The notes under the pieces are model-generated. The model saw only the letters and a program-made list of their open reading frames with translations, did no database searches and was not told the origin of the DNA. Made by a program: the position numbers and the translations under genes. From positions 1-21,742 of IMG/VR virus record IMGVR_UViG_3300013126_000289: 21,742 nucleotides of DNA; one strand, written 5' to 3'. Source of the stretch: a virus. Below, in pieces: positions 9,394-11,399 of this stretch; the first letter of the stretch is position 1; every line of letters begins with the position of its first letter.

Positions 9394-9409
9394 TGGTATG
9401 ATGATACCA
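9394..9409 (-). promoter_or_regulatory. Palindromic operator/extended -10 site A
   Basis: The perfect inverted repeat TGGTATGATGATACCA has 6-bp arms and a 4-base centre. It is near-identical to sites B (11306) and C (11384). Read on the - strand it contains TGGTATCAT, an extended -10 (TGn plus TATCAT), pointing at the acidic protein gene. No clear -35 box is seen. It probably serves as both promoter and repressor site. Confidence 0.65.
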
Positions 9410-9411
9410 GA

Positions 9412-9657
9412 TTAAAACGGAATATCGTCGTCGTCAATCAGGTCACGCGACGCCTGAATCGCTTTTGCCTTCTGCTCTCCCTTCGGAACGAAGGCAAGCG
9501 ACATGAACTTGCCTCCGTCCTTCTTGCTGGTGCGGATCCAGCTGCTGACGTAATAATCCACGCCATCAAGGGTCGCATGACCTTTATAGTCGGGATGTGT
9601 GTCTTTTTCTTTCCGGTCGTTCTTGAACAAGACCCCACTGTTGTTTCTATCTTCCAT
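9412..9657 (-). CDS. Single-stranded DNA-binding-like protein with SSB-type acidic tip
   Basis: The 81-residue protein starts at ATG 9657, which has AAGGAGG four bases upstream; GTG at 9660 is too close to it. The body (GVLFKNDRKEKDTHPDYKGH, then GVDYYVSSWIRTSKKDGGKF, then MSLAF) looks like a small beta-barrel of the DUF736-like kind often placed beside phage annealases. The last seven residues are DDDDIPF, the acidic-hydrophobic tip by which bacterial SSB recruits repair proteins (established for E. coli SSB). A role in coating or handing over ssDNA with ERF is inferred. It overlaps the ERF stop as TGATG. Confidence 0.72.
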   Translation of the reverse strand: MEDRNNSGVLFKNDRKEKDTHPDYKGHATLDGVDYYVSSWIRTSKKDGGKFMSLAFVPKGEQKAKAIQASRDLIDDDDIPF

Positions 9658-10385
9658 CACGCCTCCTTCAGGCTTTTCACGAATGCTTGAGTTTCACCGT
9701 CGAGCTTCTCCCAGACGAGGCGCTTCCCATCGGTCGAGAGCTCATCCCACAACTGTCGTCCGCCCACGTCGTCCTGGGCATCCCTCGCGTCAATCAGGCC
9801 GCTGACGTAATCCATGCGCTGCTGGGCAGCCAGTTGCTCCAGCTCACGCGCAGCTTTCTTCTGGTTGCTGCCAAGCCGACCGAAAGCGAACAGGAACGCC
9901 TGATGGTCCTCGCGCGCGATTTTGAGCAAGGCCCAACCATCACCGTCCGTCACGGCCTTGGTGACCTCTCCGAGCTTGGACGTAGTGTCTTTGCTCTGAT
10001 TAGGCTTTTCGTCCTTCACGCCAGCGTCAACCGCGTCGTGCTCGACGATTTCGAGGGCAGCGACCCACAAGTATCTGCGCGTGTATGTCTGGACTGCTCC
10101 GAGGTTTTGCACCTCGTGACAGCCCTTGAGTTGAGCGCTCGACATCGGGCTGGTGATAATTATTCGGTCGCTTGGCTCGTCAACGTTGACGATTTCCATA
10201 CGGGCTTCCGCGCCAAAGGATATGGTTGAGCAGATGCCGTGCTTTTTGAACAGTTCGAGCGCAGGGACCACAAAGTCCCCGAGCTCGAAATAGTTGTATC
10301 CGGCAAATTTATTGTGACCGCTCTTCTTGAGTTCCAGCGTGTGAAACTCGGACCGCGCCGCATTGAGCCTTTGATAAATGTTCAC
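9657..10385 (-). CDS. erf: ERF-family single-strand annealing protein
   Basis: The 242-residue protein carries the ERF core: an N-terminal helix and strand region (ELKKSGHNKFAGYNYFELGD, 18-37), and the signature GAVQTYTRRYLWVAALEI (96-113), matching the G-x-x-x-T-Y-x-R-R-Y-x-L pattern of the family. The C-terminal 100 residues are variable and rich in charged helix. ERF proteins anneal complementary single strands, circularising or recombining phage DNA. The GTG start forms a GTGA overlap with the upstream stop and has GGAAGG seven bases before it. The exonuclease and SSB-like genes are downstream in the same unit. Confidence 0.9.
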   Translation of the reverse strand: MNIYQRLNAARSEFHTLELKKSGHNKFAGYNYFELGDFVVPALELFKKHGICSTISFGAEARMEIVNVDEPSDRIIITSPMSSAQLKGCHEVQNLGAVQTYTRRYLWVAALEIVEHDAVDAGVKDEKPNQSKDTTSKLGEVTKAVTDGDGWALLKIAREDHQAFLFAFGRLGSNQKKAARELEQLAAQQRMDYVSGLIDARDAQDDVGGRQLWDELSTDGKRLVWEKLDGETQAFVKSLKEA

Positions 10386-10663
10386 TTGTTTGCCTTCCAG
10401 TAATTCTCACAACTCTTCCGGGCCATAGTCGCGAACGTCGCGCAGACCATTTTGCCCAACTCGTTCAAGGCGGCGCGCTTGTCGCCTTCGTTGCTTGGGT
10501 CATAAAGAGCAGCGACCATGCCGACGATATCGGCAGGGCTGTCACTCAACATCTCGATGCGGCCTTCTTCGTCAGCCCATGCGCTGACGATGGCCGACTG
10601 CTCATCGCGGGACAGCGAGTTCCAGTCCCGTGCGCTTGCATTCTTTGCGAGTTCTTGCCACAT
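10382..10663 (-). CDS. Hypothetical early protein
   Basis: From ATG 10663 the product is 93 residues: an all-helical, acidic protein (MWQELAKNASARDWNSLSRD, then EEGRIEMLSDSPADIVGMVA) with a C-terminal CATFATMARKSCENYWKANK. I do not recognise a family. The start lies two bases after the stop of the 27-residue peptide gene; an in-frame ATG at 10675 overlaps that gene. GGTGG is the nearest ribosome-site candidate. The stop overlaps the ERF GTG. Co-expression with ERF suggests a recombination or replication accessory role, but nothing in the sequence confirms it. Confidence 0.72.
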   Translation of the reverse strand: MWQELAKNASARDWNSLSRDEQSAIVSAWADEEGRIEMLSDSPADIVGMVAALYDPSNEGDKRAALNELGKMVCATFATMARKSCENYWKANK

Positions 10664-10665
10664 GA

Positions 10666-10749
10666 TTACCACCATCCGCGCAAGTGCGCGCCGAAAAAAG
10701 CCAATGGGAGAAGAACGCCAATAAGGAACGTGTCGACGTCAAACTTCAT
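10666..10749 (-). CDS. 27-aa single-TM micropeptide
   Basis: ATG at 10749 overlaps the upstream stop as ATGA. The product is MKFDVDTF, then an apolar run LIGVLLPLAFFGA, then HLRGWW: a single short membrane span with a short acidic N-terminus and a basic/aromatic C-terminus. Its stop is two bases before the next gene's ATG. The placement, with start and stop fitted exactly between two genes, supports it as real. A comparable 22-residue membrane peptide lies in the opposite operon at 11603. Confidence 0.6.
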   Translation of the reverse strand: MKFDVDTFLIGVLLPLAFFGAHLRGWW

Positions 10750-10961
10750 GACATCACCCCGCGACGATTGGCCGCCGCCTGCCACTCGGCCCGCCCGCCG
10801 GCGGGCGGGTTGATCGTGACGGACCAGCCTTTGCCGAGCCATTTCGCAGCCCAGCGATTGATTTCTTCTTCGGTTCCGCGAGCAATCATCGCTCTGGCGC
10901 TTCCGTTGTAAAATGTTTGTTGACCAGCTGGTGCGCCATGAGCCGTAATTTTGCAAATCAT
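10746..10961 (-). CDS. Hypothetical early protein (71 aa)
   Basis: The protein begins MICKITAHGAPAGQQTFYNG and has a central SARAMIARGTEEEINRWAAK and a C-terminal GWSVTINPPAGGRAEWQAAA. It may be a small alpha/beta fold; no family was recognised. An overlapping 96-residue frame on the same strand is a shadow, because this frame fits the repeated 19-bp leader 10 bases upstream of its ATG and the ATGA overlap downstream. The codons for PPAGGR form a perfect 20-bp GC palindrome. Confidence 0.68.
   Translation of the reverse strand: MICKITAHGAPAGQQTFYNGSARAMIARGTEEEINRWAAKWLGKGWSVTINPPAGGRAEWQAAANRRGVMS
10790..10809. repeat. Perfect 20-bp all-GC palindrome
   Basis: CCCGCCCGCC is followed directly by its reverse complement with no spacer. 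It lies inside the 71-residue early gene. In RNA it would form a hairpin only with loss of the central pairs; in DNA it could extrude as a cruciform or bind a dimeric protein. Confidence 0.85.
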
Positions 10962-10971
10962 CTTTCTATCT

Positions 10972-10990
10972 CACTTCACTTTGCGTTGAA
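10972..10990 (-). repeat. 19-bp leader repeat, copy 1
   Basis: CACTTCACTTTGCGTTGAA (+ strand) is identical to copy 2 at 11285. On the - strand it reads TTCAACGCAAAGTGAAGTG and ends exactly 10 bases before the ATG at 10961. It may carry a conserved untranslated leader. Confidence 0.85.
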
Positions 10991-11022
10991 GGCCGTCCGT
11001 GGCCTAGTTTCTGTTTTCGGGA

Positions 11023-11274
11023 TTACTTGAGCATTTCGCCTTCATCGGTCAGGCTGACCCACACCGCATCCGGGACGCCGGGCAAGCCGCTCTCGTCGAT
11101 CATGGTATCCACCAGTCCTTTTTTCACCAGCGAACCTAGAATGCCGTCGATGACGTAATGGTTCCGGTTGAAAAGGTTGAAGGCAATTTCACCCAGCCAG
11201 CCGCAGCCGGGTTCGTCCATGCCTTTTGCAATGGCTGACAGGAGGGTTTGTTCTTTTTCGGTAAGATTCATCAT
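11023..11274 (-). CDS. Small winged-helix-like early protein, first gene of the leftward operon
   Basis: The 83-residue protein begins MMNLTEKEQTLLSAIAKGMD; it has GILGSLVKKGLV in the middle and VSLTDEGEMLK at the end. The order 'L-T-x-x-E-x-x-L-L-x-x-I', a recognition-like helix, 'L-x-x-K-G-L-V' and 'L-T-x-x-G' matches small phage winged-helix proteins (from memory). I chose ATG 11274 over GTG 11292: GGAGA lies seven bases upstream, and the GTG sits inside the 19-bp leader repeat, whose other copy has the same 10-base distance to its ATG. It is transcribed from the strong promoter at 11313-11340. Confidence 0.75.
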   Translation of the reverse strand: MMNLTEKEQTLLSAIAKGMDEPGCGWLGEIAFNLFNRNHYVIDGILGSLVKKGLVDTMIDESGLPGVPDAVWVSLTDEGEMLK

Positions 11275-11284
11275 TTGATTTCTC

Positions 11285-11303
11285 CACTTCACTTTGCGTT
11301 GAA
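11285..11303 (-). repeat. 19-bp leader repeat, copy 2
   Basis: This is an exact copy of 10972-10990. It lies between the early promoter and the ATG at 11274, again 10 bases before the start codon. Confidence 0.85.
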
Positions 11304-11305
11304 CG

Positions 11306-11321
11306 TGGTAGGATCATACCA
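11306..11321. promoter_or_regulatory. Palindromic operator site B
   Basis: TGGTAGGATCATACCA has 5-bp perfect arms and shares 14 of 16 bases with site A. It covers the -10 box of the leftward early promoter, so a bound protein would block RNA polymerase. Confidence 0.7.
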
Positions 11322-11340
11322 GACCAGAATGACCTGTCAA
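11313..11340 (-). promoter_or_regulatory. Leftward early sigma70-type promoter
   Basis: On the - strand the -35 is a perfect TTGACA (11340-11335), followed by a 16-base spacer and -10 TATGAT (11318-11313), preceded by TGG (extended -10). Expected transcription start is near 11306. The -10 lies inside operator B. Confidence 0.78.
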
Positions 11341-11383
11341 CACCCAAATGCAAACAAGTGTGACATGCACGAAGTTGACACTT

Positions 11384-11399
11384 TGGCATCATCATGCCA
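11384..11399. promoter_or_regulatory. Palindromic operator site C / possible rightward extended -10
   Basis: The perfect inverted repeat TGGCATCATCATGCCA has 6-bp arms. It ends 10 bases before the ATG of the HTH gene. On the + strand it contains TGGCATCAT, a weak extended -10. The TTGACA at 11375 is too close to it to be its -35. A start near 11399 would give a very short leader. Confidence 0.62.

Follow-up and report, generated by a model that had tools for sequence, protein, structure and literature searches.

Predicted palindromic operators at three early transcription units of an uncultured phage group and their candidate Cro-type regulator

The subject of this report is a set of three 16-base palindromes in the virus record IMGVR_UViG_3300013126_000289, which was analysed over its whole length of 21,742 bases (the window), together with the gene for a 59-residue helix-turn-helix (HTH) protein of the XRE type that lies beside one of them (11410..11589 on the plus strand, stop codon included). 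We propose, with a probability of about 0.82, that the palindromes are operators for this protein, which would act as a Cro-type repressor and limit the expression of its own gene and of two other early transcription units. The palindromes, here called sites A (9394..9409), B (11306..11321), and C (11384..11399), were all found where the initial annotation of the window had placed them, and its broader idea, that a single operator family serves three transcription units with the 59-residue protein as the likely regulator, is supported by the conservation of the sites in related phages. Site A stands after the stop codon of a leftward gene for an SSB-like protein and 14 nucleotides (nt), not 15 bases as first reported, before the ATG at 9379 of a gene for an acidic protein. 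Site B covers the extended -10 element of the leftward early promoter, PL, and site C fills the spacer between the -35 and -10 elements of the rightward promoter, PR, with 10 nt between the end of the site and the ATG of the HTH gene, as had been claimed.

Conservation and symmetry of the palindromes

The consensus that accompanied the sites is matched exactly by A and C and with one mismatch by B; within two mismatches it occurs in the whole record at these three places only, and a control pattern, the consensus read backwards, has no match in the same 21,742 bases. Since this consensus is post hoc, having been derived from the sites themselves, and its count at three mismatches is unremarkable (see below), relatives of the window were sought. 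As a single query the HTH protein retrieved none; the Erf protein then retrieved 80 loci, one of which (L004) had matches to the HTH protein, too, and to most of the neighbouring genes, and a neighbouring-gene query led to nine loci with hits 80–83% identical. An HTH profile built from six sequences brought in two more, a contig belonging to the group (L105) and a distant HTH relative with a different palindrome (L110), the latter kept out of the counts. A two-row HTH profile recovered only a contig already known, scans of genome contigs with two profiles gave no relative, and a plasmid search found none.

After the removal of duplicates seven distinct switch regions were counted, namely those of the window, L089, L085, L086, L088, L092, and L105. 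Dropped beforehand were L004 and L093, which are the same contig as L089, L084 (99.96% to L085), L087 and L090 (the same as L092), and L091, which stops short of the switch. Searched against the phage collection, the 3 kb that surround the switch produced a match to a single record (141 bases at 77%), a conserved neighbour gene had no match, and the terminase matched 1,191 records, all under 60% identity, so that by sequence this is a phage group with no close counterpart in that collection as searched; nor did literature searches bring up a paper recognised as dealing with it.

The absence of conservation that the initial annotation had named as damaging to its proposal was not encountered. 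Sites B and C, over the leftward promoter and before the HTH gene, are present in all seven distinct switch regions (six beside the window), 62 to 219 bp apart, and site A directly follows the SSB gene in each of the six that cover it (five beside the window; L088 does not extend to it). Five of the relatives, L085, L086, L088, L092, and L105, are close to one another, and the window and L089 are the outliers. When these two are compared by blastn, counting stretches over 250 bases, they align up to 10673 and again from 11463 with nothing between; the sites they share therefore sit in otherwise diverged DNA. Identity of the B-to-C spacer to that of the window, an insensitive comparison, runs from 0.68 to 0.84, plus one value of 1.00 over 7 aligned letters, and shuffled spacers, equally insensitive as a yardstick, give means of 0.75–0.77 and maxima of 1.00, with L086 and L105 slightly above the mean.

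A scoring matrix trained without the window gives the three sites the three highest scores in the whole record (22.5, 21.7, and 20.0), and the top score among 50 first-order Markov sequences in this test was 15.7. Leave-one-out matrices, applied to all but L105, likewise rank the sites 1–3 in the window, L089, L085, L086, and L092, and 1–2 in L088, which lacks coverage of A; of these tests, the ones on the window and L089 are independent. For L089, the best third-rank Markov score was 12.7, against 18.3 for the third true site. As a control, 79 other Erf loci (641,545 bases, not all of them independent, at least two coming from one contig) yielded six matches at 13 or more, the best at 16.1, and the known sites score 16.5–23.6 on this matrix, which they themselves trained. 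Off-context matches, also named at the outset as a reason to abandon the proposal, are therefore not what was found: the record holds only the three sites within two mismatches, and no control locus carries two matches. Finally, a scan of the viral collection for the signature of site C with its promoter, TGGTAnnATnnTGCTATAAA followed by six bases and ATG, returned six stretches, all in known records of the group.

Over the 13 distinct site sequences the invariant letters are GnAnnATnnTnC, a perfect dyad. The invariant positions (3, 5, 8, 9, 12, and 14) form three complementary mirror pairs, an arrangement that six random positions would reach with a chance of 0.007, letters aside. Because these positions are mirror-paired, and because at A and B positions 3, 12, and 14 are not among the letters that define the promoter, the pattern favours a dimeric binding protein.

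A possible fourth and weaker operator-like palindrome stands at 19007-19022, between the gene at 18699 and the gene for the terminase small subunit. It was not accepted as a firm operator: its score of 13.6 is below the Markov maximum of 15.7, a counterpart (L099:3448-3463) was seen in the L089 phage only among five other loci checked, and the matches of L088 and L092 near this position fall on a Trp-stop codon pair.

Promoters, the 59-residue protein, and its homologue in a Bordetella phage

The promoter described at site B, TTGACA-N16-TATGAT with a TG extension, was recovered as PL (11313..11340, minus strand). Across all seven switch regions site B keeps its place over this promoter, with a -10 of TATGAT or TAGGAT starting at offset 3 of the site, TG before it, and TTGACA-like -35 elements 16 bp away. 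At site A, which in the window holds the leftward extended -10 TGG-TATCAT, the best promoter match has its -10 at offset 3 in six of six cases, and the -35 elements are weak. The claim that every palindrome embeds an extended -10 holds in this way for B and A and fails for C, where the -10 lies at the right edge; an extended -10 inside site C was rejected as the main promoter in favour of a better one that has the operator in its spacer. In the window this promoter, PR, reads TTGACA-N17-CACGCT with a TG extension (11375..11403, plus strand). In the six relatives the -35 is TTGAC[TAC], the spacer N16 or N17, and the -10 TATAAA, TAAAAA, or TAAACT, located at offset 14 of the site with its TG inside the right arm of the palindrome. 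In all seven, exactly 6 nt separate the end of the -10 from the ATG, and 10 nt separate the end of site C from it. Because the -10 of PR ends so close to the start codon, the mRNA of the repressor should be leaderless, its first base being the A of that codon (11410).

The gene for the 59-residue protein is present in eight of the nine close loci, the ninth not reaching that place, and by strand and gene order it probably heads a rightward early operon, ahead of the replication genes. A model computed from six sequences is a four-helix HTH with a predicted local distance difference test (pLDDT) value of 94, which points to a small single-domain protein of the XRE/lambda-repressor-like fold; in the predicted recognition helix region, Y30, H31, W32, C34, K35, F36, and Q38 are invariant in the six. 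Structural alignment gave AcrIIA15 (Z 8.0, root-mean-square deviation (rmsd) 1.6 over 55), Aca11 (Z 7.3, rmsd 1.7 over 54), and the N-terminal domain of MuB (Z 8.1, rmsd 2.6), where a Z near 8 may reflect just a common arrangement. Foldseek returned SinR as the best match to the model at E 0.16 and nothing under 0.001, and PHROGs gave a weak match to a transcriptional repressor (3.1e-4). No HTH match to the protein was found in Pfam, nothing came near the cut-off in NCBIfam, and the single match in a sequence search of the PDB, a zinc finger at E 0.35, was not believed. The distant relative in L110 (4420-4720) shares the stretch YHWLCKF, but the palindrome upstream of it, AATACTTTCCGCGAAAGTATT, is another one.

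Among the phages of the collection, matches to the protein, at 31%, were confined to three Bordetella phage records (E limit 0.01). The one examined, from vB_BaM-IFTN4 (IFTN4), is UOK17245.1, annotated as an XRE regulator; the similarity is weak but consistent (tblastn E 3e-3; 36.7 bits with the group profile). Its gene starts 72 bp from a divergent repressor gene with an S24 domain, which is the position of cro, so that the 59-residue protein appears to have a homologue that occupies the place of cro in a phage with a CI-type repressor. The geometry of site C recurs here: the palindrome TAGCAAAGTTTTGCTA ends 10 nt before the ATG of the homologue and is flanked by TTGAAT and TATTGT, of which TATTGT is 6 nt from that ATG. 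The arms of this palindrome, TAGCA and TGCTA, are those of site C in L088. The pattern T[AG]G[CT]A-N6-T[AG]C[CT]A, which in the window finds the three sites only, occurs in two places of the 23 kb of IFTN4 examined. When up to three mismatches to the 16-mer of IFTN4 are allowed, one pair lies by the homologue, where a further copy of the palindrome begins 23 bp towards the repressor gene, and another about 3.2 kb off, a count that none of 100 shuffles reached. These two pairs (L118:11765-11804 and 14970-15008), with their TAGCA-like arms, are laid out like OL and OR. With the same arms in the same slot at this homologue, the arms are therefore tied to this protein family and not to a neighbour. 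The 59-residue protein is thus the likely binder of the sites, because it is conserved with them, because its modelled fold is of the XRE type, and because its homologue in IFTN4 is in the cro position.

Proposed mechanism, alternatives, and neighbouring genes

Under the reading proposed here, PR would serve the HTH gene and the replication genes to its right, PL the recombination genes (Erf and SSB) to its left, and site A would mark an internal leftward promoter. Early in infection the host RNA polymerase would fire all three promoters; the repressor, made from a leaderless mRNA, would accumulate, bind sites C, B, and A as a dimer, and block the polymerase, so that its own gene and the early genes would be limited. 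The related operators overlap the predicted PR and PL in all seven switch regions.

The initial annotation spoke of a phage switch, and in the sense of lysis and lysogeny this was not borne out. The S24 repressor and the tyrosine integrase (PF00589) were found in none of ten records (seven distinct phages, the record of L105 not among them), and resolvase (PF00239) and HTH_3 over the cut-off in none of eight (seven distinct). In the records searched there was accordingly neither a CI-type repressor that could share the operators nor an enzyme of lysogeny, as a lambda-type switch would call for. As none of CI, integrase, and resolvase turned up, the likeliest reading of these sequences is an early repressor of the Cro type that works without CI. 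One open frame of 147 residues in L089 (6494-6937), between the O-like gene and a conserved gene, has a sub-threshold HTH_3 match; the window has only about 126 bases at this place. That the operators belong to a true lysis/lysogeny switch whose CI partner is encoded in an unsampled part of the genome is unlikely. It would fit with IFTN4, which has an S24-type repressor along with the homologous protein and operators, and with the shortness of the window record and the lack of any record known to be complete. It fits poorly with the negative searches, with the longest record (35.8 kb), which spans the left operon, the switch, the terminase, and the endolysin, and with a B-to-C interval of just 62–219 bp. 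We would give about even odds to a specific history and reach: a lineage that lost CI and integrase and kept Cro and its operators, in which a single 59-residue protein from a leaderless mRNA times all early expression by way of three operators, including the one within the recombination operon.

Other explanations concern the nature of the sites and the identity of the binder. The protein encoded at 11668..11865 (plus strand), a winged-helix protein of the HTH_39 family, could be the regulator, alone or with the 59-residue protein, since it is in the same operon and is conserved at 54–62% in the same eight of nine loci; its gene is not beside the operators, and the same arms stand in the same slot at the IFTN4 homologue of the 59-residue protein (IFTN4 having been examined for that homologue, the repressor gene facing it, and the palindromes), which makes this a distinctly improbable alternative. 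Still less credit is due to the view that the shared motif is a mere extended -10 element (TGnTAnnAT) with an incidental dyad. The left half is indeed an extended -10 at A (six of six) and at B (seven of seven), the right arm of A decays, and offset 3 of C allows a further extended -10, of lower score, to be read in the window, L089, L085, and L105. Yet invariance and dyad symmetry extend to position 3, which a TGn element leaves free, and to positions 12 and 14, which lie beyond the -10 on its downstream side, and at C the left half falls in the spacer of the better promoter. A host transcription factor as the binder seems least probable of all: host factors commonly use palindromes of such a size at promoters, but these sites track the phage's own HTH gene and the same arms occur beside a distant homologue in another phage.

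Several observations nevertheless weigh against the Cro-type operator reading. At three mismatches the consensus has four matches in the record, which 4 of 100 shuffles also attain. The five closest relatives are mostly about 80–95% alike where they align, so that about three independent lineages are represented, and the leave-one-out test is soft for L085, L086, L088, and L092 because the sequence of B is identical in other members. The best of 50 Markov sequences for L089 scored 20.4, above the top true site at 19.2, and the right arm of site A falls to 3–4 of 8 dyad pairs in L085, L086, L092, and L105. In the window, the -10 of PR (CACGCT) agrees with only two of six consensus letters, and PR scores the same as a spurious promoter that overlaps the ATG. 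The HTH_39 protein is as conserved as the 59-residue protein, and the records may be fragments, so that the missing CI and integrase are no proof.

The leftward operon of the window begins with a winged-helix protein (11023..11274, minus strand), which had been put forward as a possible co-regulator. Because tblastn found no match to it in the 80 Erf loci, the nine close loci, or L105, it was rejected and is an unlikely regulator. Further along on the same strand are the Erf-like single-stranded DNA annealing protein (9657..10385), the SSB-like protein (9412..9660), and, downstream of site A, the acidic YuA_Gp49-like protein (9146..9379). Tandem 5-base GC-rich repeats (xxGCC) fill 9060-9149, between the acidic gene and an exonuclease gene, and L004 has similar repeats beside its acidic gene. 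In the rightward operon, the O-like replication gene (12356..12670, plus strand) matches phrog_678 at 6.2e-15. An open frame at 11603-11671 encodes a 22-residue hydrophobic peptide and overlaps the start of the HTH_39 gene; by eye, L089 has a 20-residue counterpart, and another short and hydrophobic open frame is seen in the relatives close to where the left operon begins. A candidate intrinsic terminator after the HTH gene (11620-11640) was discarded, its T-run lying within a small open frame and no such run being seen by eye in the relative L004/L089.

Comparison with known systems

In lambda, the contest between Cro and CI makes it difficult to isolate the part that Cro plays in lytic growth. 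A group of natural phages that has a Cro-type protein and its operators and, as it seems, lacks CI would make it possible to examine the lytic role of Cro alone, and the motif (GnAnnATnnTnC, three sites per genome) allows a regulon and a transcription map to be predicted for these uncultured phages. The likeness to lambdoid Cro with OR and OL is that of a small HTH protein encoded by the first gene of a rightward replication operon, with related operators on divergent PR and PL. Unlike lambda, the records seen here have no CI gene between or beside the operators, and there is a single operator per promoter plus a third inside the left operon. UOK17245.1 of IFTN4 shares the homologous HTH, the T[AG]G[CT]A arms, and the distances of the site and the -10 element from the ATG (10 and 6 nt), but is only 31% identical, faces an S24-type repressor, and has an operator with a different centre.

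In phage PY54, the cI and cro mRNAs are reported to be leaderless, starting at the AUG by rapid amplification of cDNA ends (RACE), and the Cro operator to adjoin promoters (PMC4488713). According to the same paper Cro binds one site, and the authors suggest that cI, and not cro itself, is repressed (PMC4488713). A leaderless regulator mRNA, predicted in the present group, and an operator by promoters would thus be common to both, whereas here the site is within the regulator's own promoter. For lambda PRM, too, a leaderless mRNA that occurs naturally is mentioned (PMC7648101). The Aca families of one study are reported to be small HTH proteins with an inverted repeat in the core promoter of their own operon (PMC9410906), and Aca11 and the N-terminal domain of AcrIIA15 are among the best fold matches of the 59-residue protein; against the autorepression so described, the present phages would have three operators, on recombination and replication operons, and no acr gene is known beside the HTH gene, though no search was aimed at one. 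The proposed mechanism is ordinary in its parts, and the apparently CI-less combination of them is the variant.

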